Positions 1 through 18,333 of a DNA stretch of 64,000 bases are shown one piece after another (position 1 is the stretch's first letter; each line of letters starts with the position of its first letter). The notes beneath the pieces were generated by a model. That model saw only the letters and a program-made list of their open reading frames with translations, did no database searches and had not been told where the DNA came from. The DNA is from Haloplanus rubicundus. Its GTDB lineage: Archaea; Halobacteriota; Halobacteria; Halobacteriales; Haloferacaceae. A program made the translations under genes and the position numbers. The stretch lies in NCBI RefSeq assembly GCF_003342675.1, contig NZ_CP031147.1, positions 124,001-188,000 of the forward strand, in the 5' to 3' direction.

Positions 1-2394
1 CAAGACACAGACTCGATTCAGTTCGAACTCGTCGAGGCGCTGGCCAAGCACAATCGCCTGTTTGTCGTCGGCGATGATGATCAGGCCATCTACGAGTGGC
101 GTGGGGCAAACAGCGAAAACATCGGGTCGAAGCTGACTGCCACGTACCAACCGAATTTGATTGATAAGGAGTTGGACCTGAATTTCCGCTCGAAGCAGCC
201 GATACTGAATCTGGCCAACGACGCGATCACAGCGCTGGAGGACCGCCGGAGTGACAAACAACTCACGGCGTTTGGCAAGAAACGCGACGCGACGGACGGA
301 GTGGCCTATATCGATACCTCACCACCGGATGGGGAGGATGCGTTGGATGATGACGAGTATCAGGCGAATCAGATCACGACAGCTATCGCCGGCCTACTGC
401 GTGGGGATTTCGACCCGGTCGAGGAATCGTATGACCTAGAAGATATTGCGATTCTGGTTCGGAAGAACAGGCATGCCGAACCGCTAATCCAGTCGTTCGG
501 TGAAGCGGGGATTCCCTTCGAATTGGTCGGCGATCTCGCAACCGAATCCGTCGGCGTCGAAACCGTGCTCGCGTACTTGCGAGCAATCGCGGCACCGTCA
601 GATGATGTCAGCGTCAGGCGCGTTCTTCTTATGCGATATCGCTTGAGTGAGGCGGATCTTCGACTGTTGGCCGACTCAGCTGATCGGCTTATTGATGCCG
701 TCTTTTCGGCCAATCCGTCCGAGCTGTCGGAACCGGAGCGATTCGTCACGGCCCGTGATCACTTCCATCATTTGTTCTCGCGACGGCATCTGCTCTCGGT
801 GCAGCAACTCTATCACGAACTGTTGCACACGACGGACATCGAGTGGTTCCTGACACACACTGAACGTCGTGAACTCAAAGGACTCGAGGAGTTGATCGCT
901 GAGTACGGTGATGGCACCTCTCAACCCCCGCTTGATGCAGACTTTCTCGACTATCTCGATCACCACGACTCGATTACGGACGTGACGGATTCAGCGCCGA
1001 ACGAGCAAGGTGAGAGCGCGAGTGACGCCGTCTCTATTATGACGATCCACAAGGCGAAAGGGCTGGATTTTCCGGTGGTAGTGATGCCGGAATTGACGGC
1101 AGATCAGTGGGCACCCCGAGCACGTTCGTATGCGGATCTGGTCGAAGCAGTGAATGGGTGTGGCTTCTGGGAAGCTGATCAGATCAAACGCGACCAACAA
1201 GAAGCACGTCGACTACTCCACGTGGGGATCACGCGTGCCGAAGAACAACTGATCCTATGCGGCCATGGTGAGGCCCCTGAGACGCCTGATGAGGGCGTGA
1301 CATTGGACTATATCCAACGGTGGATTGGGGATGGCATTCGCTGGGACGTTTCAGCCAGTTCGTTTCCAGTGTGGGAGCAGATTCAAGAGAGCCTCCCCGC
1401 CTCTGCTCAAGACTGGACCGAACTCGTGAGCGAGGCCTCGCCACGCCAGACGGAGGCCGTCGCGACGTATGACGGGGGGGAGTTAACGTACCAAGCGGCG
1501 GTCGAGACGGTGCTTGATCAGGCTGATCGGCTTCTGAATGGGACGTTATCCGACGGGGAGCCTGCATCGATCAATATTCAATCGGATGCGTTCACGACGA
1601 TTGAGACCCCTTCGATCCGTCGCAGCCACAGTTACACCTCACTCGGCACCGTCGAGGACTGTGCTCGCAAGCATTATCTGGATCACGTGGTGTACGCGCC
1701 GGAGCTGCCGCGGCGGTTGCGACCGTCGGTGGACAGCGATGGCAGTGAGACTGATACCAACGATGCACCGTCTGTCACGGCGACGGATACCGGAGCATCG
1801 AACCGGGAGATTGGGGTACTCTTCCATGAGACGGCGGAAGCAGCGATCGACCGAAACCGAACCGAGCGTTCCGAGTGGCGGGAAATCTGCGAACAACTCG
1901 CCGTTGAGCGCGGGTTAGAGCAGGCACTCGAGGATGCACTCGACTGTGTCGATCGCTTCTTCCAGACGCCAGTTGCGGACTGGACCCTTCTCAGTGCCGA
2001 ACACTCCTTTGGGATCGAGATCGAGGACTACTATGTCGTAGGGGAAATCGACTGTCTCGCCCGACGACCCGACGGTGAACTGGTCGTCCTAGACTACAAG
2101 GCGACCGAGTCAGCGAAAGGTGAAACGAATCGGCAGCTCCCGCTGTACATCCTAGCCTGCGAGGAGTTGTTCGAGGAGTCGATCACGACTGCCGGCTACG
2201 TTTATGTTGGCGATGTGGGGCCCGATATCGATCTTCGAACGTACGACGATGACCGTCTCGAGGATGCGAGAACGCGGATTCTCGGTGGTCTCCAGAAAGC
2301 GAATACGAGCTCTTATGCGGACTATACCACTGGCGAGCACTGCAAGTGGTGTCCGCATAACGAACTCCCGTGTAGCGGGTTGCATGGCGAGTAG
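1..2394 (+). CDS. UvrD/RecB-like DNA helicase-nuclease with Fe-S cysteines (5' partial)
   Basis: The reading frame is open from base 1, so the start lies outside the window. It opens just after SF1 motif II and shows motif III (VGDDDQAIYEWRGA, residues 24-37 counted from base 1), motif IV (LDLNFRSKQP), motif V (TIHKAKGLDFP, about 347) and motif VI (LLHVGITRAEEQL, about 405). The C-terminal third is a RecB/Cas4-type PD-(D/E)XK nuclease: FHETAEAA (about 608), GEIDCLARR and VVLDYKATE (about 680-705). A cysteine near 554 plus CKWCPHNELPC (781-791) is the C...CX2CX6C layout of the AddB/Cas4 4Fe-4S cluster. Known role of the family: ATP-driven unwinding with ssDNA cleavage in repair or defence. The stop is TAG at 2392. 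Missing N-terminal motifs I and Ia cannot be judged. Confidence 0.9.
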   Translation, partial: QDTDSIQFELVEALAKHNRLFVVGDDDQAIYEWRGANSENIGSKLTATYQPNLIDKELDLNFRSKQPILNLANDAITALEDRRSDKQLTAFGKKRDATDGVAYIDTSPPDGEDALDDDEYQANQITTAIAGLLRGDFDPVEESYDLEDIAILVRKNRHAEPLIQSFGEAGIPFELVGDLATESVGVETVLAYLRAIAAPSDDVSVRRVLLMRYRLSEADLRLLADSADRLIDAVFSANPSELSEPERFVTARDHFHHLFSRRHLLSVQQLYHELLHTTDIEWFLTHTERRELKGLEELIAEYGDGTSQPPLDADFLDYLDHHDSITDVTDSAPNEQGESASDAVSIMTIHKAKGLDFPVVVMPELTADQWAPRARSYADLVEAVNGCGFWEADQIKRDQQEARRLLHVGITRAEEQLILCGHGEAPETPDEGVTLDYIQRWIGDGIRWDVSASSFPVWEQIQESLPASAQDWTELVSEASPRQTEAVATYDGGELTYQAAVETVLDQADRLLNGTLSDGEPASINIQSDAFTTIETPSIRRSHSYTSLGTVEDCARKHYLDHVVYAPELPRRLRPSVDSDGSETDTNDAPSVTATDTGASNREIGVLFHETAEAAIDRNRTERSEWREICEQLAVERGLEQALEDALDCVDRFFQTPVADWTLLSAEHSFGIEIEDYYVVGEIDCLARRPDGELVVLDYKATESAKGETNRQLPLYILACEELFEESITTAGYVYVGDVGPDIDLRTYDDDRLEDARTRILGGLQKANTSSYADYTTGEHCKWCPHNELPCSGLHGE

Positions 2395-3610: not shown

Positions 3611-3709
3611 GCACGATACTAGTGGAACTCCTATTCAACAGTCGCCGTTTGCACTGCTTGAGTGATTACTCCGTGCTGGCGACTGATGCAACGCTTCACG
3701 ATCCCATTC

Positions 3710-5941
3710 ATGAAAGATAACCCATTCAAAAACTGGTCCCGTGACGACGGACGGCTTCTGAGTACCTCTTTCGCACATGATCATTATTCGTCGGTTTCTG
3801 TCGCCGAAGCCTACGATCATGCTGTTGAGACAGCCGATCTTGAAGCCACCTCAAGAGGAACGTACGTACTCCCACTGTTTGAACCAGATGTGCCTGAGCC
3901 GACTCATGAGTACGTTTTTTACGATCATGAGACACAAGAGGTGAAATACTACGACACTGAAAAGCGCCGGATTAACTGGCTGTCGCCAGATGAAGTCGCG
4001 ACGATACGGCTCGGCCAAAGACTCCGCTGGTGGCACCCTGATCAAAGACAGCAGCTTGAGACGCTTGACGACGATCAGGTGCCTCCAGAAACGGTTGTTC
4101 CTGTTACCACGCTTAGTGACCGAGAGACATCCGAATTCTTTGATGAAATGCGAGAGCTGGTCAAAGAAGAGCGGAGGGCGGATAAGAAGAAAAATCAAGA
4201 GCGATATGACGAGCTGGGCCTTGAGACAGCTCTGCGTCGGGAACTGATGGCAGGTCCACTTATTCCGATCGGCACAGCCCGCTATGAAGACGGTCAAGCG
4301 TACAAGTTTCAACTCTCAGCCGAAGAAGATGCTGACAATGAAACGGAACCCAACCTCCGCGATGATGCCGGTGTCTTCACCGACAATCAGTATATCGCAG
4401 CGGTACGTGGACACAAGAGTCAAACCTCGACCGAAATGGAAGCAGTCTACGTCGGAGATACAGAAGTATGGCTCCGTCCAGTAAATACAACAATTTCAAC
4501 GAATTCATCTCGTCATAACGCACTTACTGACGACGAAGCAACGGTATGGCTCCACGATCTGCTCAACCCCCTCCCGTATGACCGTCGAATAGACGCAATC
4601 AGAGAGGTAAAAAATAGTCGACAAAAGCAGCAGCTGCTCAGCGGGGACAGAAATGTTACCTTCGAATCAAACAAGTATGCCGTCCCAGAGCCAGCGATTA
4701 CGCTCAACGACTCGCAAAAGAAGGCTCTCGTCTGGGCCAAGGCTGCGAACGATTGTCTCTGTATTCATGGTCCACCAGGGACTGGAAAGACACGTACTCT
4801 AACGGCCTATATTCGGGATCTCGTCGCTCGGGACAATCGAGTGTTAGTCACTGCTCACTCAAACCAGGCCGTCGACAACCTTCTTGTCGGAGATAGTACT
4901 GTCGACGAACCCGAAAAGGCGACACTCCACGCGATGGCTCAAGACGACGATACTGACCTCAGCATTGCACGTTCTGGAAATAACTCTGAAAATCAGGTCG
5001 TCAGGAGTTATTACCAAGGTGTCTCACCGGGAGAAGCAGATATCGTTGCAGCAACCACCAGTGGGGCCGCAAATTTCTCATCCGACAACTTCGATGTTGG
5101 CATAATTGATGAGGCGACGCAGGCTAGTCGCGCTGCGACTGCTATCGCGTTCAGCGTTTCTGAGAAACTTATCCTTGCTGGGGACCACAAGCAACTCCCC
5201 CCATTCGCGGCGTCTGATGATAAGCTCGGTGACGAACAGCGACTTTCACTATTTGAGACATTAATGAACCGGTATGGCGACGATATCGCAGTCATGCTGC
5301 AGACCCAATACCGGATGAACGAAACCATCGCATCCTTTCCTAACCGAGCCTTCTATGACGAGAAATTGAAAACGGCAGATCAAAATCAAGACTGGACTGT
5401 TGATGGCCTCTCCCCCTTGATGGGGATCCACATCAAAGGATCTGAGCAGAAGCGAGCGGCAAGCCACTCTTATTATAATCCTGACGAAGCGGAGGCTGCC
5501 GCGAAGCAGGTGAAGTTACTCACTAACAGTGATCTTTCGCCAAGCGATATCGGGGTGATTGCAGCGTATAGGGGGCAAGTCAAAGAAATCAAACAGCAGC
5601 TTCGACAACTGGACATTCCGCGTGCTCATCAAGTATCGGTGGATACGGTTGATGCTTTCCAAGGGAGCGAGCGTGAGGCAATTATCGTCTCGTTAGTTCG
5701 AAGCAATAGTAGGGGAGCAAGTGGATTCCTGACGATGCCTGATGAGGGCCCTCGGCGACTCAACGTCGCACTCACTCGTAGCCGCAAGCGCTTGGTCATC
5801 ATCGGGGATTGGGATACACTCAGTGAATACGCGGCTCATCGTGATCATGACGAGAGTTGTAGTGAATTATATGCCGAATTAGAAGGCTTCATTCGGGAGA
5901 TCGACAAAATGCTTGATGTAGAGGCACAATCAGCCCAGTAA
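3710..5941 (+). CDS. UPF1/DNA2-type SF1 helicase
   Basis: A 743-aa superfamily 1B helicase. The ATG at 3710 (MKDNPFKNW) is preferred; in-frame GTG 3662 and ATG 3686 also exist. Residues 1-330 form a poorly conserved N-terminal region. Then follow Walker A (HGPPGTGKT, about 352), motif II (IIDEATQAS, about 465), motif III (GDHKQLPPF, about 490), motif IV (QTQYRMNE, about 531), motif V (VDAFQGSERE, about 645) and motif VI (LNVALTRSRKRL, about 684). The family unwinds RNA or DNA with ATP. No nuclease domain is visible. It is convergent with the DrmB-like gene 180 bp away; similar helicases are common in defence islands, but a link with the Drm genes is only inferred from position. Confidence 0.88.
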   Translation: MKDNPFKNWSRDDGRLLSTSFAHDHYSSVSVAEAYDHAVETADLEATSRGTYVLPLFEPDVPEPTHEYVFYDHETQEVKYYDTEKRRINWLSPDEVATIRLGQRLRWWHPDQRQQLETLDDDQVPPETVVPVTTLSDRETSEFFDEMRELVKEERRADKKKNQERYDELGLETALRRELMAGPLIPIGTARYEDGQAYKFQLSAEEDADNETEPNLRDDAGVFTDNQYIAAVRGHKSQTSTEMEAVYVGDTEVWLRPVNTTISTNSSRHNALTDDEATVWLHDLLNPLPYDRRIDAIREVKNSRQKQQLLSGDRNVTFESNKYAVPEPAITLNDSQKKALVWAKAANDCLCIHGPPGTGKTRTLTAYIRDLVARDNRVLVTAHSNQAVDNLLVGDSTVDEPEKATLHAMAQDDDTDLSIARSGNNSENQVVRSYYQGVSPGEADIVAATTSGAANFSSDNFDVGIIDEATQASRAATAIAFSVSEKLILAGDHKQLPPFAASDDKLGDEQRLSLFETLMNRYGDDIAVMLQTQYRMNETIASFPNRAFYDEKLKTADQNQDWTVDGLSPLMGIHIKGSEQKRAASHSYYNPDEAEAAAKQVKLLTNSDLSPSDIGVIAAYRGQVKEIKQQLRQLDIPRAHQVSVDTVDAFQGSEREAIIVSLVRSNSRGASGFLTMPDEGPRRLNVALTRSRKRLVIIGDWDTLSEYAAHRDHDESCSELYAELEGFIREIDKMLDVEAQSAQ

Positions 5942-6122: not shown

Positions 6123-8075
6123 CTAAATTTGGGTGAACCCAACAGTATCGACGCCATCGAAGTGGCCGCCGAAATAGACCGACCGACTGAGATTCCGATT
6201 CGAGTTCTGGCAGGTCACGTTCGACAGGAACAGACAGTCTTCACACGCCGAGTTATGATCCCGACGGCACACCGTGTCGTACGTACAGTAATCGGTTTCC
6301 TCGAGTTGATCGACGACGTCGGGAAAGCGCTCCTCGAAGAGGGTGAAAATCGAGCCCAAGCTGAAGTCCGTATCCGAACGCTTGTAGATGATCACCGACA
6401 TCGTTCGGGGGAGAAGGTGCTCGACAAGGCTATCACGACCGTACCCCGAGAGCGTCCCGATCGACTGGATGACACTATGTGAGAAGGTATGCAGAAGGGA
6501 GTAGACGTGCCGAGAGACAGGATCGGACTCGGGATCGAGCTCTTCGAACCGCGACGGCCGAGCGACATTCGACAGGAACCAACGGTCCAAGTTTTCTATG
6601 TGGTCATCCTCGACGAGGTCATTCTCGACGAGCCAGTCGACCACGGCCTGTTTATCCATCGTGAGCATGACCGCTTCGGCGTCGGTCGTCTGTGCGAAGA
6701 CTTCCGTATCTCCCCACTGCCCACTCGAGAATAGATTCAACAGGGGCGACGGATCGCCCCCCTCCTCACCTTCTGGAGGCTGAGATGTGGTTCCGCCATC
6801 AGTTTCGGCTGTCTCGCCATCCGAATCATCATCTGCCCGGCTGCCAGCAGATTGCTGAGCCCGATGGCCGCCCGGTGACGGTTCGATACGTGAATAGCCG
6901 TACGAGACGGTCGTGATCGGGAAATTCTTGATCAGTCGAACTTCCTCGAGGTTGAGTTGGTCGCGGAGCTCGCAGTACCGCTGTACTGAATCGGCCTCCA
7001 GGTGGGTCTCCGGGCCCTCTTCCGAGGCAAGATCGGCGAACGTGTACGAGGTGATGCGGTCGCCTTCGTCATAGTCTGGATTGACTACCGAGAGGTATTC
7101 GAACAGTTCCTCACTCAATTTGATCTGATCAACGCCCGAAAGACGGTCGGAGAGAAGGTGTTTTGTCTCGTCGCGATGGGCCTGAATATCGACAGTCAGC
7201 CGCTGTTCGGCCATCGTCAGTGCCTCGTCACGGCTCTCGGCTTCACCCGTCTCAATAAGTTCCATGGCCTTGCTGAGCTTCTCCTGTTCACTGGGGCCCG
7301 TATTCCCAGCTCGTTCCAAGAGATAATCGCTGACGATCTGAATCTGGTACTGGTCGTTGCTCACCAGCGTATCCAGATCCTTGCGGACGTTGATGAGCCG
7401 CTCCGTCTGGGGGTAGAACGTCTGTGAGGCGGAATGGGGTAGCAATTTCCGTGCCTGCTGATCGTACTCACACTCGGGGTTGAAACATTTCCCGCTCGGG
7501 CGGAACTCCTGTTTTGCATTACATCCCGCTGCCGTACACACCCAGTAGGCACTCTCGAAGCTCACGCCGGGGTTCCGAAAGGACATGCCAGCGCCACAGT
7601 GTTCAGGGGCGTACATCTCCTGTATTTGACCGCACCGACACACTACCACGAACTGCATCTGGTGATGGTCCCGCAGGCGCTCTCCGCAACGCTCACAATC
7701 GAGGCTACGGGTACCCTTCGAGGAGAAATCGCGAATTTCTTCGGGGCGAAACTGGTTGACGCACCCACAGTTTCCACAGGCAAACGTCCGTGGGAAGACC
7801 TCGAAATTCGCCGCTCCAGGGGTGACGATAGACGCATTTTCCGGGGCGAGGGAGAGCCGGTCCCAGTTCGGCCAATCGATTGCGTGCCGACTGATACGCC
7901 GGAGGATGTACGCATCCGGCAGATCCGAGGCTTTCGACCGGCCGGATTCGTCTCGATCCTCATGAATCCGTGTGACGATACCGCTCAGGTCACTTTCGGC
8001 GTGATTGAACGTGTTATCTGGGAGATAGTCGAAGAGAAATTTCGACTTTTTCCGTTCCATCGTCATGCTAGTCAC
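6123..8075 (-). CDS. drmB: DrmB-like protein (DUF1998), DISARM
   Basis: 650 aa. The C-terminal part (about 500-640) carries the DUF1998 hallmarks: HTFSHSVIQSIGTLSGYG followed by a cysteine cluster (CTYDTVCRRDHNSACEDC). The N-terminal half holds several zinc-binding pairs (CGNCGC, CERCGERL, CRCGQIQ, CNAKQEF...CFNPEC). DUF1998 proteins act next to helicases; in DISARM, DrmA and DrmB form a DNA-binding complex that blocks phage DNA without the methyl mark. The start overlaps the end of the DrmA-like gene by 8 bp, so the two are translationally coupled. It is the last gene of the long minus-strand run. A Gln/Gly/Asp-rich linker near residues 390-440 is probably flexible. Confidence 0.82.
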   Translation of the reverse strand: MTSMTMERKKSKFLFDYLPDNTFNHAESDLSGIVTRIHEDRDESGRSKASDLPDAYILRRISRHAIDWPNWDRLSLAPENASIVTPGAANFEVFPRTFACGNCGCVNQFRPEEIRDFSSKGTRSLDCERCGERLRDHHQMQFVVVCRCGQIQEMYAPEHCGAGMSFRNPGVSFESAYWVCTAAGCNAKQEFRPSGKCFNPECEYDQQARKLLPHSASQTFYPQTERLINVRKDLDTLVSNDQYQIQIVSDYLLERAGNTGPSEQEKLSKAMELIETGEAESRDEALTMAEQRLTVDIQAHRDETKHLLSDRLSGVDQIKLSEELFEYLSVVNPDYDEGDRITSYTFADLASEEGPETHLEADSVQRYCELRDQLNLEEVRLIKNFPITTVSYGYSRIEPSPGGHRAQQSAGSRADDDSDGETAETDGGTTSQPPEGEEGGDPSPLLNLFSSGQWGDTEVFAQTTDAEAVMLTMDKQAVVDWLVENDLVEDDHIENLDRWFLSNVARPSRFEELDPESDPVSRHVYSLLHTFSHSVIQSIGTLSGYGRDSLVEHLLPRTMSVIIYKRSDTDFSLGSIFTLFEERFPDVVDQLEETDYCTYDTVCRRDHNSACEDCLFLSNVTCQNSNRNLSRSVYFGGHFDGVDTVGFTQI

Positions 8076-11000
8076 CTCCGGAGGTTAGTTCGTCGACGAA
8101 GTCCTGATTGTTGTACTGCGGTGTCAGGGATCCCTGATCACCGATATCCCTGAGACTGATCATCGGTTCCTTACCCTCCGGAAATTGCGGATACGACATA
8201 CTCGGTAGATCCTGAATCCAGAATTGCCACACGTTGTTGGTTTTTCGGCGAACTTCATCGTAGAAGTATGGGTTGGTGTAGTGATCGTTCTCCAGCCCGT
8301 ACGCTCGCTCAACTAAGGACTGCAGTCGCTCTTTGGTGAGTTCTCCGTATCGATCGTTCGTCATCAGCTCGTACAGGTGATTGGCCTTCTGGACGTTAGC
8401 GGGCTCCGGACCGTTATCATCGAGTGCCAGCTCGTACTGTCGGTACATTTCGGGTCGGTAGTACTGGATGAGCAGTGAATTGAGGATCCCAGTGAACGTC
8501 CGGTCGATGCCGAATTTCGCCCATCGGTCGATCGGAACCGGCTCTACCGTCCGGTCAAGGTATTCGTGTAGTTTCTCGAAATATCGATAGCGATGATCGT
8601 CGCGTTCTTTTAATGGGTCGAAGACGTCGAGAACGAATCCGACAACCCCGGATTGACGGCCGACACGGCTGCTGGATTGAATGTACTGGAACGTCCGTCG
8701 CGGATAGCCGTAGAACAACATCATATTGAACCGATCAACGTCGATCCCGTGTCCGATAAAGCTCGTCGACGGGACCGTGTCGATTCGCTCGCCGAACGGT
8801 GTCTCGCCGGGATCTTCGAGCTGAGCCAAGAGTTCGGGATTTTCCGTGTCTGCTGTGAGTTGTCGCTCTCTGATCGGGTGTTCATACCCCTCTCGCTTCA
8901 TTTTCCGAACCGCATACTTCGCGATGTTCTCTCGATAGCGATCCTTCCGGCGCTTGTTATTGAAGTAGACGACGCTGGTCTCGTAGAGGTCGAGAATATC
9001 GGCCTTTTCAGCTTCCGACAGCTCATCGATCCCAGCCTGTGCTGCAAGTTCCGCTGCAGGCGTGTCGTATGCATCCCGGATCAGCTGGTGGTAATCGATG
9101 ACGGTATCCAATACAGCGTACAGATGCGAGCGATTGGCCGGGGTGAACCCAAGATACTCGCGCTCGATCGTCTCCGTCAGTTCCCCATAGAACGTCTCGC
9201 CACGAACCGGTCCGTCCGCTGGGAACCGTGTGGCGTCTTTCTGGAACAGGTGTTCGATCTGTCGTTCGTATTCGGCAATCGTCGCTGTCGACGTGAGAAT
9301 TTTGGGCTGCTTACCGTGGATCTCCTCGCATAACGTCTGATACAGGGTCTCGTAATGTGCGGCGAAGGTTCCCAATTCCTCATTAAGCAGGTGGACTTCA
9401 TCGACGAGATGAAGTGTTGGCACCGGATCGTACGCCTCGTCTGGATCGACCTGTTCCAGTTCTTCGGGGTCTCGGTCACAGAGCTGATGTTCGGAGCATT
9501 TCCCCGAGTATCCGTAGCCGTGATCCGGACACCATGTCGTGTAATTGCCGAGGAGATTCGCAAATCGGGGTTGTTGCCCGGTGATTGCGATCTTATCCAG
9601 CGACCCCAGCAGAATCGACGGGACGTACCGATAGATATCTCGATCGATAACGTACAGCGGGAGCCGTCCTAAGCAGTCATCTCCGGTACAGGTGTGGAAG
9701 ACACTGTTTGCTTCGGAATCGTATTCGACGGAGATAGAGCTATGACAGAGCGGGCATGAATCAATCACCTGACAGCGGTCTTCGAGCTGTTCTTGGCTCT
9801 CCTGAAACATCTCGCGGAACGTGTCTCGGTTAGTGCCGATGGAGTTGGGAGTGTCATAACTTCCGGCGAAAAATCCGAGCGAAAACGGCTCACCGGCGCC
9901 GCTCAATCCCAGTTCGGACTCGCTTCTGCGAATCTGTTCCGCATGAAGCATGCTCTCCAAAAATCGACTCTTTTGCTGACGGCTCAGTAGTCGCAACGGG
10001 AATCGAATCCACGCGGTAACTCCCTGGTCTTTGCCTCGGAGCCGATCATAAAAGAGATTGAAAACGATCAGGCCGAGATATGCCTCGGTTTTCCCACCGC
10101 CGGTGGGGAACCACAGTACGTCAGCCAATTCGTCGTAATCTGTCGCTAATTCGGGATGCTCACGCCGCGCGATAGCGGAGAGATTGCTCACGATGAACAC
10201 CAGCTGGAACAGCCGCCAGCCGGGGAACTCGTGTTGCCGGGCGTTGACTTCATTCATCAACTGGAAGGCTCTGAGCGCCTGTGGGTCCTCCTCTAACACC
10301 GTGAGACCGTGTTTGAACCGTTCGATCTCGGTGGCGAAATCCTCAGCGTCCGCATCGAATTCAGCTAACTCGGCTGCATCAAGATCGAGTTCTGCAGCCA
10401 CCTCGGTTCGCCGAGGGCCCGTCCAAGCATCGTGGTATGCCTCCATCCCATCGGCAATATCCCGAAGCACCCCAAGTGTCTCCCCACGGGCCAGTTCCGC
10501 AAACTCCGTGTTGTACTCCGTATTGAACTCGAATTCGTAAACCGGCGCCGTCGGGACAGGCGTTGTTTTGACTGTTTTTGGCGATGTGGTCTTGTCCACA
10601 GTCGTTGAACAGTTCCTCCCCTTTGCCCACATAGTCTGATCGTACCGGTAATCTTCCGGGATCAGTTCGAATGTATACGGCTTGAGCGGTGCTGTGAGGG
10701 TGATCTGGGGATTGAACAAATACCGTTCACCGGGTCCGTCGTTGGGATCCGACGACTCGGCGGTCGGGGGGTGATTCGAGAGGGTCAGCTCAAGCTCGCC
10801 GTCTGACATCGACGCTCTAAATCGGACATCCCAGTCGAGGGCATCCGGACTCAGGCGTTGGAGATCGCTTTTGTGCCCGTCGAATTCGCTTTCCGATAGA
10901 TCTACAAGATCTTCTGCCGAGGATGTCGGCGGGTCGATTGAGTGGTCGACGATCGCGTGTGCTTCAGCGAGAGAAGCAACCTCCTCTCTCAACGTCTTGT

Positions 11001-11499
11001 TCAGTTCGGTGGTGATATCTCCAGCTTGCTGTTGAAGTTCAGCAACCGTGAGATCCCGCTCGACGGCCACGGAACCGCGTCGGAAGAACGGCTCGTCGAA
11101 CCCATAGAGGATGTCATCGTCGATCTGGCTCCGATCGACCTCTTCCCACGTATCCACATCATCGGCCCCCTCGGCAATACTGATTTTCCCAGCACGAATC
11201 CGACGCTCTTGGATCGACTGATACTCCTCAAAAGTGGGCGCACTGGGCACGTAGAACTCGAATCCAACATGAAGCGAGATGGTTGCTTCTCGCTCGGGTT
11301 GACATTCGAGGCTAATACTGCTGGGTCTGGTTTTCGCGTCGAACTCTTCGCGATCAGCGCTTCCGTACTCCGGTGAGAGATTTGCGATGTAGTATTTGTC
11401 GCTGGGTTGATCACCGACGCAGAAGGGCTTGTCCCGCCCCCTGGCACGCTTGATTGTCTCTGCTATTAGATACTGGCCGACATGGTGTGTTTTATTCAT
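8068..11499 (-). CDS. drmA: DrmA-like helicase, DISARM
   Basis: 1143 aa SF2-type helicase. Walker A is WFPTGGGKTEAYLG (about 460); a zinc-binding insertion follows (CPLCHSS...CTGDDCLG, about 580-610), then the DEVH-type motif II (LVDEVHLLNEELG, about 690), motif III STATI (about 750) and the C-terminal helicase domain with SFIGHGIDVDRFN and QSSSRVGRQSG (about 940). This layout, followed at once by a DUF1998 gene, is that of DISARM DrmA. The start overlaps the DrmE-like gene by 4 bp and the end overlaps drmB by 8 bp. Expected role: ATP-dependent DNA translocation and recognition of foreign DNA. The general helicase/DUF1998 alternative (for example a repair pair) cannot be excluded from sequence alone. 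Confidence 0.82.
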   Translation of the reverse strand: MNKTHHVGQYLIAETIKRARGRDKPFCVGDQPSDKYYIANLSPEYGSADREEFDAKTRPSSISLECQPEREATISLHVGFEFYVPSAPTFEEYQSIQERRIRAGKISIAEGADDVDTWEEVDRSQIDDDILYGFDEPFFRRGSVAVERDLTVAELQQQAGDITTELNKTLREEVASLAEAHAIVDHSIDPPTSSAEDLVDLSESEFDGHKSDLQRLSPDALDWDVRFRASMSDGELELTLSNHPPTAESSDPNDGPGERYLFNPQITLTAPLKPYTFELIPEDYRYDQTMWAKGRNCSTTVDKTTSPKTVKTTPVPTAPVYEFEFNTEYNTEFAELARGETLGVLRDIADGMEAYHDAWTGPRRTEVAAELDLDAAELAEFDADAEDFATEIERFKHGLTVLEEDPQALRAFQLMNEVNARQHEFPGWRLFQLVFIVSNLSAIARREHPELATDYDELADVLWFPTGGGKTEAYLGLIVFNLFYDRLRGKDQGVTAWIRFPLRLLSRQQKSRFLESMLHAEQIRRSESELGLSGAGEPFSLGFFAGSYDTPNSIGTNRDTFREMFQESQEQLEDRCQVIDSCPLCHSSISVEYDSEANSVFHTCTGDDCLGRLPLYVIDRDIYRYVPSILLGSLDKIAITGQQPRFANLLGNYTTWCPDHGYGYSGKCSEHQLCDRDPEELEQVDPDEAYDPVPTLHLVDEVHLLNEELGTFAAHYETLYQTLCEEIHGKQPKILTSTATIAEYERQIEHLFQKDATRFPADGPVRGETFYGELTETIEREYLGFTPANRSHLYAVLDTVIDYHQLIRDAYDTPAAELAAQAGIDELSEAEKADILDLYETSVVYFNNKRRKDRYRENIAKYAVRKMKREGYEHPIRERQLTADTENPELLAQLEDPGETPFGERIDTVPSTSFIGHGIDVDRFNMMLFYGYPRRTFQYIQSSSRVGRQSGVVGFVLDVFDPLKERDDHRYRYFEKLHEYLDRTVEPVPIDRWAKFGIDRTFTGILNSLLIQYYRPEMYRQYELALDDNGPEPANVQKANHLYELMTNDRYGELTKERLQSLVERAYGLENDHYTNPYFYDEVRRKTNNVWQFWIQDLPSMSYPQFPEGKEPMISLRDIGDQGSLTPQYNNQDFVDELTSGGD

Positions 11500-13736
11500 T
11501 CGTCGTTGAGGATGGTGATGGATTCGACCGTCGCTTTGCGGATATCTTGTGAGAACTGGTCGACGTCATCGGGGAGATCCGTCTGGAGGTCGCTACTGAT
11601 GCTGCCGCTCATCTGCGATTCTATTGCACGCCTCGCACGACGGCCGATGTTTCGGTGCTCCGTCCGAATCCGTTTCATCGCTTCCGCCGTCGCTTCATAC
11701 GTCGGCTCCATCTCCGGTTCAAGAACGGCTAACACGCGTCGGACGTCCGCCGGATCTTGTGGGCCAATTGCCTCGCCTGTATGCCAGTTCGAGATCGTCG
11801 ACTGGTCGGAGATATCAGAGCCATGCTCTTGAATCGCCGCAAGGAGTTCTTCGCCCGACCACTCTCCGGACAGACCTTCATTCAGAATCGTCCGCCACCG
11901 GTCGACGATCGATTCCGCCTTTCGCAGTCTGTCTTTCTGGTGGGCGGATTCGACGAACAGGTCGTAGATGTCGTCTGCGACTGCGTCGAGCAGCAAGAGT
12001 GTATCCCCCACAACAAGGTCTGCTGCTTGCTTACGCGCGATATCCCCGTTATCCTTGAGAACACTCACACGGGCTTGTTTTGACAGGTGTTTCGTTTCGC
12101 CATTTGAGAGTTCGACTTCGAAATCAGGGTTCGCTGACGATGTCCCGCCGCCCCCTCCAGAACCGGAGGTGACGGTCGTCCCACCGCCTTCGAAATCCTC
12201 TCTCAATGTTTCGGTTGGATCCGCTTCCTCGTCGGCCCGTGGTTCGTACTCGGCGGCCGATTCTCTGGACTCCGTTTCCTGTTTTTTACGGCCGCCCATT
12301 TGACCGATTTCCTGCCGTTCGATAGGGATGCCGATCTGTCCCATTCCCTCTTCCAGTCGATTTTCGACGAGCGGGGCCCACGGTTCAAATTGCAGAAACG
12401 CGATTCGCCCAGCTGTCGGGAAGTCATACAGATACGAATCGGCATCCAGTGGTCGAGCGACGATGATTTCACCATCTGGAGCCGGTTCGATATCGTCGAC
12501 CGTGCGAATGGATACTTTGTCCGCGAGTTGTCGGTCTTCTAGTGTGAGTGCCCGCAGGATCGCTTTCCGTTCGAAATCATTCCTGACGACAACGATCCGG
12601 GACCTGTCCAGGTCCCCGTTCGTTTCCGTCGTAATCAGTCTCAAAAGTTGCTCTTGGACCGGGTGATTAGTATTGAGACGGCCGTGAAGCGCATTCGCTG
12701 CTTCGCAGTAGTTGATCAGCACACTTCCTGTCCTCCCATCGAGCCGTTGTGCCTTCCCGCGGAGGTTCTCCAGTAGTTCTCGAACCCCTTGTTGGTAGTA
12801 ATTTTCCGCGACGACGGCATCCCAGTATTCTGGCTTGACTGGGAGCCGCGTGAGGAGGTTGAACAGCCACCCGACTTCCATCTTGATGACGCCCTGAACG
12901 TCTTGGTTCGCCTGAATATCGTCCCGCATCGCGCTGAGATCGGTGACGATATCGTACATCTCCGGATCGCCAACAACGATCTGTTCAACCGTGGTCTCTT
13001 CCGTGTTGATGAGACGTTCGAACTGCGTCGTAAGACTTGGATTCTCCGGAAGCGATGTCGGCTCAGCTGTCGTGAGCAGCTCGTTTGAGACGTGGAGGGT
13101 GTTCATTTGCTCTTTCAGGGCCTCCGTCGCGGGCGTCAGTTCGTCCGTATAAAAGATGAAAGGGCATTCACTAGCTTCATACAGGGCCATGATGGCGTCG
13201 AATCGCCTCGCGACGTTCCCCCACTCGGGCTTTCGAAGATCGACAAACACCATACCGACAGTATTGCCTGATCGCTCCCAATCGAATTCGAAGTTGTTTT
13301 TCGCCGTATGCATATCGGCCTCCAGCTGTATCTGTGAGAGTCGATCGATCGGCTCTCGGTCGATCAACCTAGGACAGCGGCCGATGCCATCCTCCCGGAG
13401 ATCATCGATTTTCGAGACATACCCCTGATGAAGCGCCGGGAATGCGAGCAAGGACTTGCCACCGCCAACGATGCCTTTCTCAGGGAACCGCGGGTCCTGA
13501 GTGCGGACGTAAGCGATACTGAGGCCTATCGGAATCCGATTTGACGGGATTGGATCGTGGATTAACAGGGATCGGCCCCGCTCGAGACTGCGGAGCGTTT
13601 CCTCAATTACCGCCAGTTCAGTCTCACCAAACGGATACGACTCCCCGTCCAGTTTGATGTTCGCGGGGAACCAACGGGTCAGATAATCCCGTCCGCGACA
13701 GGCATGTGCATGTGAGGCAATCGAATTTATAGTCAT
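11496..13736 (-). CDS. DrmE-like protein, DISARM class 2 component
   Basis: 746 aa. Residues 50-120 contain a glycine-rich P-loop-like segment (GIVGGGKSLLAFP, about 88-100); residues 150-180 (VGMVFVDLRKPEWG) and 370-440 look like Rossmann or RecA-type strands. A Gly/Ser/Thr-rich linker near 510-530 separates a C-terminal helical domain with an HTH-like stretch (DQSTISNWHTGEAIG, about 640-655). Position (directly upstream of drmA and drmB, 4-bp overlap), length and domain arrangement fit DrmE, the class 2 DISARM subunit of unsettled function. I rely on context more than on a certain sequence match, hence the moderate confidence. The upstream gene overlaps it by 4 bp. Confidence 0.6.
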   Translation of the reverse strand: MTINSIASHAHACRGRDYLTRWFPANIKLDGESYPFGETELAVIEETLRSLERGRSLLIHDPIPSNRIPIGLSIAYVRTQDPRFPEKGIVGGGKSLLAFPALHQGYVSKIDDLREDGIGRCPRLIDREPIDRLSQIQLEADMHTAKNNFEFDWERSGNTVGMVFVDLRKPEWGNVARRFDAIMALYEASECPFIFYTDELTPATEALKEQMNTLHVSNELLTTAEPTSLPENPSLTTQFERLINTEETTVEQIVVGDPEMYDIVTDLSAMRDDIQANQDVQGVIKMEVGWLFNLLTRLPVKPEYWDAVVAENYYQQGVRELLENLRGKAQRLDGRTGSVLINYCEAANALHGRLNTNHPVQEQLLRLITTETNGDLDRSRIVVVRNDFERKAILRALTLEDRQLADKVSIRTVDDIEPAPDGEIIVARPLDADSYLYDFPTAGRIAFLQFEPWAPLVENRLEEGMGQIGIPIERQEIGQMGGRKKQETESRESAAEYEPRADEEADPTETLREDFEGGGTTVTSGSGGGGGTSSANPDFEVELSNGETKHLSKQARVSVLKDNGDIARKQAADLVVGDTLLLLDAVADDIYDLFVESAHQKDRLRKAESIVDRWRTILNEGLSGEWSGEELLAAIQEHGSDISDQSTISNWHTGEAIGPQDPADVRRVLAVLEPEMEPTYEATAEAMKRIRTEHRNIGRRARRAIESQMSGSISSDLQTDLPDDVDQFSQDIRKATVESITILNDE

Positions 13737-14215
13737 ATTTTACTTGAAGGGCTCACTGGGCCGGCGAGGAGGATGTCACCACGAGGATAGTGGGGACATC
13801 CCCCATCGCTCGGATGATCTACATTGCGAATTGTTACTCGATCACAACCACATTTAAGAACTTTCCTGAGGGTATCAATTATGAATCTGCTGGGGGAGGG
13901 TGATTTTGGTCTGTCATAGTGGCTAGCTGTTGAACTCTTTTGAGGTATCCCAGTGGCCCATTCATCCAGAGCGAAACGGATTCGTTTGGAGATCTGCCCG
14001 GCCCGGTCGATATCGCTCTGGCTCAAGCTTGGGTAGGCTATGATCGGACAACCAAGATGATCATCTCGTGGTTTCCTGCGAGGGTCGCGGAGAGCCGCAT
14101 CTGTTACGTCACCGTATCTTGAATCGATACGTTCCGCAATTGCGAATTCATCCGATTGATCAATGGTGTCACCACGGGTCAATCCGCTATGCTTACTTTG
14201 TGATTTGTCTGTCAT
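13733..14215 (-). CDS. Small unknown protein coupled to the DrmE-like gene
   Basis: 160 aa if it starts at ATG 14215 (MTDKSQSKHSG); an upstream in-frame start exists at 14281. It ends in an ATGA overlap with the DrmE-like gene, so it is in the same transcript. The N-terminal half is helical (SQSDIDRAGQISKRIRFALDEW, split here at residues about 80-100), the C-terminal part contains KCGCDRVTIRNV and a second cysteine (GGCPHY), which could bind a metal. No family recognised. A gap of about 106 bp separates it from the PIN-like gene upstream, so a promoter for the Drm genes could lie there. Confidence 0.6.
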   Translation of the reverse strand: MTDKSQSKHSGLTRGDTIDQSDEFAIAERIDSRYGDVTDAALRDPRRKPRDDHLGCPIIAYPSLSQSDIDRAGQISKRIRFALDEWATGIPQKSSTASHYDRPKSPSPSRFIIDTLRKVLKCGCDRVTIRNVDHPSDGGCPHYPRGDILLAGPVSPSSKI

Positions 14216-14321
14216 AATCACGGTTGGGGAGCCATTCATCGGTGAGACCATCATCATTCGTTGACTTGGGCTAGGGCCCACGATTCCCGGGGGTTCAGTT
14301 CCAGCAATTCTGGGATGAAGT

Positions 14322-15365
14322 TCATTTCGTCGCCTCGTATTCGGTTGTTACCGCACGATCACGCCGAAGTTTCTTACGAACGTTCTCGCTTCTACAATCG
14401 ACATCCAGACGACGTCGTTGCCAGTCCTCCCCAGATTTGCCGTTCCACACCCCGTACAGGGTTACTTTTGGGAGTCGCAGAACGCCGAACAGCACCGAAA
14501 GCGTGTAGAGCGCATCCTGCAGTTCGTCCCATGTGACGGTTACCTTTCGTGGAATGTCAACCGGAAAACTCACATGTTGTGCAAGTACCCTTGCCTCACG
14601 AGCCATCTCGACGAACCCGTGGTCGTTGCTGAGAAGAATGACTCGCTTCCGGCTATTTTGGTCGTACTCCGCGTAGGCGTCCACGATGGCTTCGTCGCCC
14701 GTCTCACTCTCGATCGTATCCGCGTACCGATGGTCGCGGAGGCGACGATATTCGTAGAGTCCGAGGAATCCTTCACGATTCGCCCCGGCCGGCTGATTGT
14801 CCAGCCGTGCGAACTCGGACCCGAACGCATCCTCAAGGGCTCGCGTCTCGTAGTGGTTGTAATGCCAGTTGAGTTCCTCGTAGATACCCGTCGCGAGGGC
14901 AAAGCCATTGACTGGACTCCGACCGTTGTCGTCACTGTATCGCTCCGGATCCAATTGGAGTACATCCGGCATCCGCCAGGCGAGGAGGTTCGTATCGATA
15001 CCCAGTGCCACGGGTTGATGGCCGGCGTCAAGGTCGGGATACCCCTGTCGGCGGAAGAACGTCTCCACGTCCTCGCGATTTTCGATGTCGACGAGGCCAC
15101 CAGCAACGAGCGCTCGGATGTAGGTATCCTTGTCAGGCAGGTCATCGTAGGCCTGTTCGCCGTATGTCGTGTGGAGTTCCTCGCGGGAATCCTGGTACGT
15201 GAGCGCACCCTGTGTGAATCGGACCGTGGTTGCGACGGGATCAGAAAGGTCGATCTCAAGGAGTTCTCCGATCTCTTCACACGGGTGCCGAACACTAACC
15301 GACGTAATCCCCTCGGTGTACAGCGCGTTGAGGAGATGCGTGATGTGGTGGCGGGCAAGTTTCAT
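14322..15365 (-). CDS. PIN-like nuclease, partner of the CARF-like gene
   Basis: 347 aa. Residues 1-115 form an N-terminal domain of unknown type. From about 118 there is a PIN-like arrangement: VALGIDTNLLAW (Asp124), GIYEELNW (Glu163/164), a central TGDEAIVDAY (Asp224, Asp229) and VILLSNDHGFVEMA (Asp248), matching the four acidic positions of PIN ribonucleases. A C-terminal extension of about 75 aa is basic near its end. The start codon overlaps the stop of the CARF-like gene (TAATG), so expression is coupled. Inferred role: an RNase effector controlled by the upstream sensor. The PIN call is by motif; the fold needs structural support. Confidence 0.65.
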   Translation of the reverse strand: MKLARHHITHLLNALYTEGITSVSVRHPCEEIGELLEIDLSDPVATTVRFTQGALTYQDSREELHTTYGEQAYDDLPDKDTYIRALVAGGLVDIENREDVETFFRRQGYPDLDAGHQPVALGIDTNLLAWRMPDVLQLDPERYSDDNGRSPVNGFALATGIYEELNWHYNHYETRALEDAFGSEFARLDNQPAGANREGFLGLYEYRRLRDHRYADTIESETGDEAIVDAYAEYDQNSRKRVILLSNDHGFVEMAREARVLAQHVSFPVDIPRKVTVTWDELQDALYTLSVLFGVLRLPKVTLYGVWNGKSGEDWQRRRLDVDCRSENVRKKLRRDRAVTTEYEATK

Positions 15366-15838
15366 TAGAAGACCTCCTGGAAGTCGACGAGTTCGACCAC
15401 TGGTCTGGGGACATCGGGATACAACCGGCCGTAGAAGCGGTTGTTCGAGACGTAGAGATAGAAGACGTGGTCGGCCTCAAACTGAATCCCCGCCTGGAAC
15501 GCGATCGCCGACATGAACTTTCGACCGGGAGTGACATCGACCGCCGCCGTACCCCCGTCGGCCTGTATCTGGGCAATCGGTTCACGAAAGTGCTCGACGA
15601 TCCCGTGGAAATCTGTCTCCGTATCGAGCTGCGTCACGGAGAGGTCAGGATCCTCACCGCCGTATTCGACGACCACACGCTCCATCATGGACGTGATATC
15701 ATCGAACTGGTCACCGACGCCAGGATTATCCAGCACGTACAGTTCGTCGGGGAGGAATCCCTCTTCACAGGCCGCGATGAGAGGATTAATGACCGCCTCC
15801 AGGTTCGTGCTCATGGTTGTGAGCCACGCATCGACCAT
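15365..15838 (-). CDS. Single-domain CARF-like nucleotide sensor
   Basis: 157 aa. It has the Rossmann-like layout of CARF domains: N-terminal strand-helix with MSTNLEAVINPLIAAC (about 9-24), a second strand DELYVLDNPG (31-40), and near the end of the third strand the ligand-loop motif AAVDVTPGRKFMSAIA (98-113), which resembles the D-x-T-G-x-K-x-M loop of CARF proteins that bind cyclic oligoadenylates. The length is that of one CARF domain with no effector attached. The next gene, coupled by a 1-bp overlap, is the PIN-like nuclease, so sensor and effector appear split over two genes. No type III CRISPR gene is present in the window. Confidence 0.65.
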   Translation of the reverse strand: MVDAWLTTMSTNLEAVINPLIAACEEGFLPDELYVLDNPGVGDQFDDITSMMERVVVEYGGEDPDLSVTQLDTETDFHGIVEHFREPIAQIQADGGTAAVDVTPGRKFMSAIAFQAGIQFEADHVFYLYVSNNRFYGRLYPDVPRPVVELVDFQEVF

Positions 15839-15841
15839 TAC

Positions 15842-16228
15842 TCATCGACCCCCCGACTGAGCGGCGTTGGCTTTCCATTGCTCGTGCTCGATCTCCGGAT
15901 GCCGGACTGCTACGCGTTGAAGTGATTCGTACATGACGTGGAGTTCTACGATCATCGTGTGGGCCTTCTCACGGAGGTCTGTAAGTTGGTCCTCTGGACT
16001 GGTGTCCGTCAACGTCCGTTGCTGCTGCGGGAGGCGAAGCTGTGTGAGGTAATCCAGAATAGCACCCGTACCGCTGGCTAACTGTGGGAAGATCTCGGCA
16101 ACCTCGTAGACTGCGCGTGGGTGGTCAGCAATGATCTCCTCGGCGCTCTTGAATTCGACCGGTCGACCTAGTGCGTCACCACAGGCAAGGCCGAGTAAAC
16201 AGCCCTGTGCGTTCGCTGTCTCATTCAT
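15842..16228 (-). CDS. ADP-ribosylglycohydrolase N-terminal stub joined to an unknown tail
   Basis: 128 aa. Residues 8-31 (GCLLGLACGDALGRPVEF then KSAEEI) match the N-terminus of DraG-type ADP-ribosylglycohydrolases, and nearly repeat the start of the gene at 29336. After residue 33 the similarity ends: the remaining 95 residues are helical and contain no TDDT metal site or later acidic clusters, so no glycohydrolase activity is expected. The start overlaps the HTH gene by 8 bp and the stop lies 3 bp before the CARF-like gene, so it has been kept in frame within the operon. It may be a recombination product now serving another role, or a passenger. Confidence 0.6.
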   Translation of the reverse strand: MNETANAQGCLLGLACGDALGRPVEFKSAEEIIADHPRAVYEVAEIFPQLASGTGAILDYLTQLRLPQQQRTLTDTSPEDQLTDLREKAHTMIVELHVMYESLQRVAVRHPEIEHEQWKANAAQSGGR

Positions 16229-16547
16229 CGTCAGTCACCAAGACTTCGTCAGCATGGTTCTCGATCAGCGTGAGGAAGGTCTCAACCTCGTCGTACTGAG
16301 GGCCCTTCATAACCGCTCCAGTTTCCCGATTCCAGTCGATATATCCTGCCGCCTCTAACTTTGGGAGGTGGACGTGATACAGTTCAATCTCCGAGCTGTC
16401 CAGAGCGTCTGGCCCCTGGAATGGCTCCAGCCTATCGTCTCGCTTCAGCCTGTAAAGTATCTCCCGCCGCTGTTGCTTCGATAGGACTTCCATGATACGA
16501 TCCACCTTCGAAGACGCGAACACGTCGGGCGGTCCCTTGTCAGTCAT
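16221..16547 (-). CDS. ArsR-like winged-helix regulator (DUF7344-like)
   Basis: 108 aa from ATG 16547 (MTDKGPPDVF). The pattern VDRIMEVLSKQQRREILYRL (about 16-35), then ELYHVHLPKLEAAGYIDW (about 54-71), and a final helix with DEVETFLTLI is the haloarchaeal DUF7344 winged helix. These act as DNA-binding transcription regulators. It overlaps the HEAT-repeat gene by 8 bp and the glycohydrolase-stub gene by 8 bp, so it is co-transcribed and could control the operon. A longer in-frame start at 16616 would lie inside the upstream gene and is not needed. Confidence 0.75.
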   Translation of the reverse strand: MTDKGPPDVFASSKVDRIMEVLSKQQRREILYRLKRDDRLEPFQGPDALDSSEIELYHVHLPKLEAAGYIDWNRETGAVMKGPQYDEVETFLTLIENHADEVLVTDDE

Positions 16548-18333
16548 CGCGTTGGTCCCCTTTGTTGATCTGGACGAGCGCCCACGATGCCCTCGTGCGG
16601 ACATCGGCGTTGTCATCAGCCTGTGCTCGATCTTCCAGGGGCGATACCGCTACAGAGGCGGAGAGGTGTCCGAGCGCCCAGCAAGCGTTCTCACGGACGA
16701 GCGGATTCTCGTCCGACAGCAGCTCCACGAACGTCGGCGTGACGTGTTCGACCGACTCCGGGAAGTCCTCGGCTACGCGGCTAAGGGCACCGCTCGCATT
16801 GATTCGCGTGTAGGTGTCCTCAACCGTCAGTAATGCGGTGATCTCCTCGGTGTACGGCTCGACCACGTCGGTGTGAACGATCGCCACGTCGCCGATTAGT
16901 CCGATTGCGTTGTTCCGGAGCTTGGGGTTATCGGCGTCGAACAGAGTTGCGACATCGTCGACGATATCGACGGCGATGCTCGGGTACTCGCCCACGATCC
17001 GTCCAAGCCCAGCGGTCGCGTTCAACCGAACGCTGTCGGACAACGAGTCACGGAGGGTGACTTCTCCAAGTGTCTCGGCGACCGGTTTGACTTCCTCCGG
17101 ATACTCGCGCGTGATCCGCGAGAGTGCGTACACCGCGTACTGGAGTCCGTCGGCGTCGTCCTCAATGATCGTTGCAAGCGACGGTACGGCGTCCACAGCA
17201 TCCTCGGGGTTTTCCTCAGCAATCGCGGCGATACATCTGGTCGCTTCACGCCTGACGGAGACAATGTTCGACTGCAGATACGGTACGAGTTCGTCGGTGA
17301 GCGGAGCGATCGCCCTCGGATCGGCATCACCAATGGCGCGGAGAGTGGCCAGCATGTCGGCCCGAGCGGGTAGCTCGTCACGTGTCAATAGTGACCGAAG
17401 GATTGGAATCGCCGGCGTACAGTCCTCTGGGCGCACTGCCGCCACCCGACGGAGTGCCTGGGCTGCGTCCTTTTCCCGGAACAGATCAACGTCTTCGCGA
17501 TCCAGAAGAGCGAGGATCGATGAGATACGGACCGCCTCTGGATTCACATCCGCGAGTCGGCGGAGCCCAGTTGCCTCCTCGGCAGGCGTCTCTGCGCTCG
17601 CCGTGTAGAGATTCGGTGGGGGATCGACCACGGAGAGCAACTCGATTGCGTCGACGGGAACGGTGAATTGGTCACTATCTGGGGCGAGCGGCGTGCACTG
17701 GAGCGCCGGCGCTGCCGAGGGGCGTTCGAGTGTCACCGCGTGAAGGGAGACGTCGTGGCACAGCTGCGTTCGTTCGGCCCCATCGTCGATGTACGTGAGT
17801 TCGAATCCGGGCGCATCGGTGTGGTCGTCGAGAAACGACGATAGCATCGACGCGTTCGCAGGCATGATTCCGGCAGACGTCGGGAGTCCACCGTCGGTCA
17901 TTATGTCACGAACCCATGGGAGGTCGGGATGGATGTCTCCCCGTTCGACCGCGGGAACGAACTCCCAAGCGTGGTAGTGCTCCCACGCGTCGACATCACT
18001 CAGATCGAGGTCGTCGACAACGACGTAGCCGTCCGCGTCCGGGTGCAGGTCGGCGATGAGTGATAGCTGCTCGCGCCGGAGTGGGAACTGCTCGTACCGA
18101 CCATCGGGCTGTTTCTCGCCGAGCCACTCGTCCCAGTCGTCGGGGTGGCGGCCGACGATGTCGACGACACCCGGAATTGCGTCCTCCTCGGCCAGCGTCT
18201 GATTGCCGATGGCGTAGACCGCGTGTGGCGTCTCATGGGCGAGATGACGCACCCACTCCAGCGGGACTGCGTCGTGGCGGGGATGTGGATTCACGTCGAC
18301 GGTCCAGTCACGGTCGAACGCGAATACGAACAT
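16540..18333 (-). CDS. HAD-like domain fused to HEAT repeats
   Basis: 597 aa. The N-terminus (MFVFAFDRDWTVDVNP) has the DxDxT/V nucleophile motif of HAD-fold hydrolases, with a later DGYVVVDDLDLSD (about 101-113) as a candidate acidic motif IV. From about residue 255 to the end run HEAT/Armadillo-type helical repeats of about 38-42 residues (for example NPEDAVDAVPSLATII, SVRREATRCIAAIAEENP), predicted to form a solenoid for protein or nucleic-acid binding. The start touches the stop of the vWA gene (TGATG). HEAT proteins paired with vWA proteins in haloarchaea suggest an assembly or sensing complex; the phosphatase activity is only a motif-based guess. Confidence 0.72.
   Translation of the reverse strand: MFVFAFDRDWTVDVNPHPRHDAVPLEWVRHLAHETPHAVYAIGNQTLAEEDAIPGVVDIVGRHPDDWDEWLGEKQPDGRYEQFPLRREQLSLIADLHPDADGYVVVDDLDLSDVDAWEHYHAWEFVPAVERGDIHPDLPWVRDIMTDGGLPTSAGIMPANASMLSSFLDDHTDAPGFELTYIDDGAERTQLCHDVSLHAVTLERPSAAPALQCTPLAPDSDQFTVPVDAIELLSVVDPPPNLYTASAETPAEEATGLRRLADVNPEAVRISSILALLDREDVDLFREKDAAQALRRVAAVRPEDCTPAIPILRSLLTRDELPARADMLATLRAIGDADPRAIAPLTDELVPYLQSNIVSVRREATRCIAAIAEENPEDAVDAVPSLATIIEDDADGLQYAVYALSRITREYPEEVKPVAETLGEVTLRDSLSDSVRLNATAGLGRIVGEYPSIAVDIVDDVATLFDADNPKLRNNAIGLIGDVAIVHTDVVEPYTEEITALLTVEDTYTRINASGALSRVAEDFPESVEHVTPTFVELLSDENPLVRENACWALGHLSASVAVSPLEDRAQADDNADVRTRASWALVQINKGDQRDD

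Follow-up and report, generated by a model that had tools for sequence, protein, structure and literature searches.

A trimmed class 2 DISARM core, drmE-drmA-drmB, in a Haloplanus rubicundus defence island

How DISARM spares the host that carries it is unsettled: methyltransferases belong to these systems, but structures suggest that the chief cue is the shape of the DNA. A clade that retains DrmE, DrmA and DrmB (DrmEAB) under selection after the loss of its methyltransferase and its PLD nuclease, here in a genome that encodes no C5-cytosine methyltransferase, would offer a direct natural test of tag-free DISARM. Such a gene set lies in the 64,000-nucleotide stretch of Haloplanus rubicundus DNA that is called the window here (G000:C1:124001-188000 in a 3.77 Mb haloarchaeal genome). 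Can these three genes still act as DISARM, and what would then keep them from acting on host DNA? We incline, by a little more than an even chance, to a trimmed class 2 DISARM core that would sense foreign DNA mainly by its structure, draw on a nuclease in trans and need no cognate 5-methylcytosine (5mC) enzyme.

The three core genes and the two that are missing

The genes drmE, drmA and drmB are intact open frames on the minus strand, overlapping by 4 and 8 bases (Table 1), and the tight cluster described in an initial annotation is confirmed by Pfam, NCBIfam and PADLOC profiles, a fold match and the coordinates. DrmE, the class 2 protein, scores 202.7 bits against Pfam DrmE_N and 172.6 bits against DrmE_C, far above both cut-offs, and passes NCBIfam DrmE_fam (129.4, cut-off 80). 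DrmA is a DrmA-type superfamily 2 (SF2) helicase by its PADLOC match (E = 3.9e-124) and by its structural match to 7s9w, with 372 bits against NCBIfam DrmAS, under the cut-off of 950. DrmB is the weakest and most diverged of the three: it matches PADLOC DrmB at 1e-35 and 7s9v_B by phmmer at 1.8e-7, scores 83 bits against NCBIfam DrmB_fam (under the cut-off of 240), and retains a cysteine cluster in its C-terminal DUF1998-type region. The PADLOC and phmmer matches and the gene overlap identify it as the separate DUF1998 protein that DISARM carries beside drmA, so that all three identities are upheld.

A search reaching 9 kb from the core gave no drmC homologue; drmB is followed by the convergent Upf1-like helicase gene, and the operon encodes no DrmC-type PLD-domain protein. 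PLD matches elsewhere in the genome sit in frames of 556-1311 aa; an 810-aa protein of the same contig with a PLD / NgoFVII-like nuclease domain (window 53194-55626) is a candidate nuclease in trans. To the left of the AddB-like gene described below, a frame of 307 aa was entertained as a hidden DrmC on the strength of a chance HxKxxxxD motif, and was dropped when Pfam identified it as a metallophosphoesterase.

The methyltransferase is missing too. There is no drmMII homologue within 9 kb of drmA, profile scans of the operon found neither DrmMI nor DrmMII, and a genome-wide search for the C5-cytosine methyltransferase family PF00145 gave no match (control profiles positive in 10 of 14). The initial annotation had reported neither drmC nor a methylase beside the core, and to a distance of 9 kb this is borne out. 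Its wider wording, that no methylase is within reach, stands for a cognate 5mC enzyme and fails for amino-methyltransferases, since PglX and three N4/N6 methyltransferase genes lie 12-29 kb left of drmB in the same island. Its suggestion that a methylase elsewhere marks self DNA is likewise divided: because PF00145 is absent from the genome, C5-cytosine marking is excluded, and what survives is marking by one of these four amino-methyltransferases, which we weigh below. None of ten genes scanned with Pfam in the right part of the window is a DNA methyltransferase. Nor is a class 1 system indicated: the operon has no DrmD-like gene, and an SNF2 helicase further left of the core scores best as BrxHII, not DrmD.

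The same window also encodes a protein with an AspBHI-N domain and HNH (31082-32125), presumably a modification-dependent (5mC) restriction enzyme. A DrmMII that makes 5mC could be harmful in a host carrying such an enzyme, which would fit the absence of PF00145.

A clade of trimmed loci

Relatives were gathered by DrmA searches of the order, of three families and of GTDB contigs; the comparison set holds one genome per species, and the frequency of the clade is therefore approximate. Seven close loci carry drmE-drmA-drmB only: the window, G270, G433 (Haloquadratum metagenome-assembled genome, L033), G480, G060 and the near-identical G328 and G447. The neighbourhood comparison that the initial annotation had proposed thus recovers the same gene set in six further loci from other species, so the set is neither chance nor local decay. 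Six other loci have drmE-drmA-drmB-drmC together with a C5-methyltransferase gene, directly upstream of drmE in five of them, and the remaining DISARM loci comprise two intermediate ones (G544, G066) and 23 distinct distant ones. In a maximum-likelihood tree of 38 DrmA sequences the seven trimmed loci form one clade (support 100/99), the six complete loci form its sister clade (98/94), and the two are joined at 100/99.

The distribution of drmC follows this tree closely. It is absent from 7/7 loci of the trimmed clade and lies after drmB in all six sister loci, in G544 and in 23/23 distant loci, so that outside the clade only G066 is without it (30 of 31 keep it). The simplest history for these sequences would be that the ancestor of the clade lost drmC and drmMII once, and that drmC was lost separately in G066. 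Absence of an adjacent methyltransferase, on the other hand, seems common among haloarchaeal DISARM loci: about 15 of the 23 distant loci gave no match to DrmMII, PglX or other methyltransferase queries, an incomplete test, and none of ten neighbour proteins from six such loci is a methyltransferase in PADLOC. What distinguishes the clade is the loss of drmC, not the absence of a methyltransferase.

All three frames are open in the seven loci, and because pN (nonsynonymous change) between clade members is 0.14-0.27 while pS (synonymous change) is saturated near 0.8, drmE, drmA and drmB are maintained under purifying selection. DrmEAB is, then, a genuine reduction of class 2 DISARM, shared by the whole clade and maintained by selection; given that absence of the methyltransferase seems common in haloarchaeal DISARM and that drmC is known to be dispensable, it is a variant and not a new kind. 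Taken strictly, two features of DISARM, the methyltransferase and DrmC, fail here, and the genes are better called a DISARM-derived DrmEAB core. In the literature covered, subscription journals only thinly, no description of this clade was found under DISARM/BREX hybrids or drmC-less haloarchaeal DISARM.

In G060 (L044) the trimmed core is convergent with genes for an HKD-SNF2 helicase, an HmaB-like methyltransferase, DUF7680 and DUF499, neighbours that resemble a type-2 BREX-related system (PMC12839542).

How a trimmed core could act

The predicted structure of DrmA (AlphaFold2, AF2; pLDDT 84.6) matches the solved DrmA 7s9w with a Z of 32.3. The 930 residues that align begin at chain residue 130; what precedes it in Serratia DrmA, ~130 residues at the N-terminus, is not present, and it is in this region that an EVE-like domain has been described for class 1 (PMC12458937). 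The Walker A motif (TGGGKT, 466-471) and the DEVH box are intact, and the helicase motifs are conserved among clade members. At the trigger-loop position the window protein has a segment of 28 residues, P32-P59, and all haloarchaeal DrmA proteins examined have 26-42; a short loop was accordingly discarded as a trait of the clade. A C-terminal LRD[IV] motif, LRDI in the window protein, is conserved throughout the DrmA set and is equated by position with Serratia R1294-x-V1296, the profile alignment to 7s9v ending before the motif. The presumed base-contact position is conserved as well.

DrmE is modelled (AF2 pLDDT 77.5) as a double-RecA, SF2-helicase-like core of about residues 1-480 followed by a C-terminal domain. 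Foldseek gave Hef as the best match (8e-7), and a fold search covering residues 1-480 gave a VIA Z of 12.7 to T4 UvsW. The position of motif I shows no canonical P-loop, and in the light of the model DrmE is probably not an active ATPase. Clade members other than G270 carry a GxxGxGK[ST] string at about residues 86-93 of DrmE (GIVGGGKS in the window protein), which the sister clade lacks; it was rejected as a P-loop, since in the model it precedes the second strand and is not at motif I. The trimmed clade also points to the helicase-like DrmE as a member of the minimal set that deserves study.

It has been reported that DISARM can do without DrmC, which is frequently missing, that 5' overhangs activate DrmAB and that DISARM may borrow nucleases; discrimination of self from non-self has been proposed to rest on DNA structure (PMC9142583). 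Against this background the following scheme may be drawn. After the clade ancestor had lost both drmMII and drmC, DrmA and DrmB would probably act together as a helicase complex, loading on viral DNA where single strands or 5' overhangs are exposed. By extension from Serratia DrmAB, DNA structure would keep this complex from loading on intact host duplex, and DrmE would have the putative role of a helicase-like scaffold or regulator. The loaded complex would translocate and thereby block viral replication; destruction of the DNA, if any, would fall to other nucleases in trans, for which the neighbouring AddAB-like helicase-nuclease is the leading local candidate, and self-protection would be independent of a cognate 5mC methyltransferase. 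By analogy, our leading expectation is that DrmEAB works like DISARM, with antiviral activity predicted. The bolder statement, that across the whole clade DrmEAB alone discriminates by DNA structure, independently of methylation and with no dedicated methyltransferase or nuclease, the nuclease coming from interchangeable AddAB-like or BREX partners, we put forward only tentatively.

Neighbouring modules, rival explanations and known systems

Table 1. Features at and around the core, in window coordinates
Feature	Coordinates	Strand	Remarks
AddA-like UvrD helicase, 3' part	1..2394	+	whole protein 1171 aa; PD-(D/E)XK nuclease domain
Upf1/IGHMBP2-like SF1 (superfamily 1) helicase	3662..5941	+	759 aa; Pfam AAA_11/AAA_12; PADLOC MkoA-like 1.6e-85
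DrmB	6123..8075	-	650 aa; PADLOC DrmB; C-terminal DUF1998-type region
DrmA	8068..11499	-	1143 aa SF2 helicase; PADLOC DrmA; structure match 7s9w
DrmE	11496..13736	-	746 aa; Pfam DrmE_N, DrmE_C; NCBIfam DrmE_fam
182-aa open frame upstream of drmE	13733..14281	-	drmE upstream region; probably not a gene
CARF-PIN/CARF/ADP-ribosylglycohydrolase remnant/HEAT/VWA module and divergent ATPase gene	14299..22330	-	outside DISARM core

The island extends beyond the window on the left (L080, L081, L082), where BrxA, two BrxC, BrxB, PglZ, PglX (2252 bits) and BrxHII (1588 bits) are, by their sequence matches, a complete type-5 BREX. Beyond it toward drmB come an Mrr-type nuclease gene and three N6_N4 methyltransferase genes, one of 293 aa against 412-416 aa in relatives. 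The nearest methyltransferase gene is ~12 kb from drmB and PglX ~29 kb, and all of them belong to the BREX and restriction-modification blocks. Next stands a trio at G000:C1:119840-126394, AddB-like (707 aa, a name resting on gene order and weak UvrD-family matches), PD-(D/E)XK (323 aa) and AddA-like. The initial annotation had put a UvrD helicase on this flank; a helicase it is, although the window holds only the 3' part of a protein that starts outside it.

The arrangement was compared with G113:C2. There the BREX and restriction-modification block is shared at 86-89% nucleotide identity and the CARF module at 87-91%, and DrmEAB is absent. The stretch between these two blocks is not the same. 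Here it measures 19.8 kb (window -5451 to 14304) and holds metallophosphoesterase, AddB-like, PD-(D/E)XK, AddA-like, Upf1-like, drmB, drmA and drmE genes; there it measures 10.8 kb and holds, among others, genes for an AddB-like protein of 1116 aa, an AddA-like one of 1277 aa and a metallophosphoesterase of 469 aa. Since shared blocks surround a differing middle, DrmEAB occupies an exchangeable slot of ~20 kb with an AddAB-type module. The Upf1-like helicase gene, convergent with drmB, lies inside the same cassette, and a homologue with 50% identity lies on the opposite side of drmE in G270.

AddA-like searches match nearly all haloarchaea through a core AddA paralogue, and only near neighbours were counted. 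On that count AddA-like genes adjoin the core in four of the seven clade loci, the trio being convergent with drmB in G270, G328 and G447 as well, with gaps from the AddA-like gene to drmB of 38 bp in G270, 65 bp in G328/G447 and 3.7 kb in the window. A DrmEAB-AddAB partnership is plausible. AddA-like modules that differ from this one also lie close to other type-5 BREX-like loci.

Several observations weigh against structural sensing with a nuclease in trans. Methylation-dependent ATPase activity has been reported for Serratia DrmAB (PMC9142583); the Serratia trigger loop has 57 residues where part of a 28-residue segment stands here, so that the structural gate may differ; the island holds PglX and other amino-methyltransferases, and with one near every clade locus methylation could matter; and because AddAB-like modules also follow type-5 BREX where DrmEAB is lacking, and a related gene lies by the sister-clade locus G299, these modules may not serve DISARM at all. 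The third of these points leads to an explanation that we consider unlikely, though worth setting out: that the self mark is N6-methyladenine (m6A) or N4-methylcytosine (m4C) supplied by a neighbour system (the type-5 BREX PglX or a type II methyltransferase here; HmaB of a BREX-related system or type II enzymes in relatives), DrmM having been lost because it was replaced. An amino-methyltransferase gene is found in the neighbourhood of 7/7 clade loci, as a raw count: PglX and N6_N4 enzymes in the window and G270, an enzyme of 533 aa in G433 and of 455 aa in G328 and G447, two of 485 and 454 aa in G480, and the HmaB-like one in G060. In G480 and G270 such a gene is immediately upstream of drmE, and the conserved, presumed base-contact position of DrmA is in keeping with a role for a mark. 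These enzymes, however, come from different families and systems, no single one being conserved with the core; genes of this type are abundant in defence islands generally; and the one nearest to the core here, 12 kb off, belongs to a restriction-modification block that also occurs in an island lacking DrmEAB.

A composite system, in which DrmEAB works as one with the AddAB-like helicase-nuclease, perhaps also with type-5 BREX, and AddAB takes the place of the DrmC nuclease, appears to us rather improbable. For it speak the directly convergent AddA-like genes of G270 and G328/G447, loci ~60% identical in DrmA, the 23 distant DISARM loci, none of which has an AddA match to a distance of 9 kb, the G270 locus (L040, L136), where the AddB-PDDEXK-AddA genes follow type-5 BREX with the AddB-like gene starting 17 bp past pglZ, and the single ~20 kb cassette that holds the whole block in the window genome. 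But the flanks fetched for G433, G480 and G060 are free of AddA-like genes, the sister clade has its related one in G299, type-5 BREX loci without DrmEAB have AddA-like modules too, and convergent orientation means no shared transcript. That the core is a relic, a DISARM stripped of essential parts and non-functional or merely carried in the island, we think very improbable. The want of drmC and drmM and the decay nearby, in the shortened 293-aa methyltransferase gene and an ADP-ribosylglycohydrolase gene, would suit it; open frames in all seven loci with conserved catalytic motifs, and nonsynonymous change several-fold under synonymous across a long divergence, do not.

On the right, the initial annotation had proposed control of the core by upstream sensor genes, an idea that has lost ground. 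The CARF block is independently mobile: it is 94.2% identical over 8023 bp to L213 (G313), alignments with loci from five other genomes all end at 14299-14319, just before drmE, and with the CARF-PIN stop at 14322 the border falls between CARF-PIN and drmE. The module occurs without DrmEAB in other genera, with CARF-PIN 93-97% identical. Because the border is sharp and CARF-PIN copies across the order mostly lie away from drmA, this separate mobile unit is probably a recently placed neighbour of drmE, which weakens the CARF/PIN genes as a sensor of this system; G328 and G447 do carry a related, more distant CARF pair beside drmE and divergent from it, so that some functional link may exist. 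The 182-aa frame between module and drmE was set aside as a component, having no family match and no homologue in the fetched loci of other genomes, and probably is not a gene.

Within the module the ADP-ribosylglycohydrolase gene (15842-16228) is a remnant with ~480 internal residues gone. CARF-PIN modules lie near AddA-like genes in 4/5 loci picked by CARF-PIN identity alone (L210, L211, L212, L214 and others) and directly adjoin them in G061, G069 and G049; a functional CARF-AddAB link is possible. Further right, DNA polymerase B, Cdc6/Orc1 and TrbL-like genes (34548-60495) suggest that this contig of 225 kb either is a plasmid or derives from one.

Among known systems, type-5 BREX (BrxA, BrxB, two BrxC, PglX, PglZ, BrxHII) is complete in the window genome and in G270, where it adjoins the cassette. 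DrmEAB is not one of its components but a unit of its own: no BREX genes occur in the fetched flanks of 5/7 clade loci, and the type-5 BREX of many genomes is without DrmEAB. ARMADA, BRIGADE, TALON, Druantia and Dpd share the central YprA/DrmA-type helicase. Separate genes for helicase and OB-DUF1998 are described as consistent only in DISARM (PMC12458937), and it is this split, as found here, by which membership in ARMADA, BRIGADE or TALON was rejected; the operon also has no ArmA/ArmB-type genes. Serratia DrmAB (class 1 DISARM, PDB 7s9v/7s9w) is alike in the DrmA fold, the helicase motifs and the C-terminal R-x-[VI] motif, and differs in its N-terminal extension, its much longer trigger-loop region and the DrmD/DrmMI that this operon lacks. 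Class 2 DISARM (DrmMII, DrmE, DrmA, DrmB, DrmC) has a C5-methyltransferase and a PLD nuclease that are missing from the operon here; its DrmE, DrmA and DrmB are homologous and stand in the same order, and in the DrmA tree loci of this kind form the sister clade.

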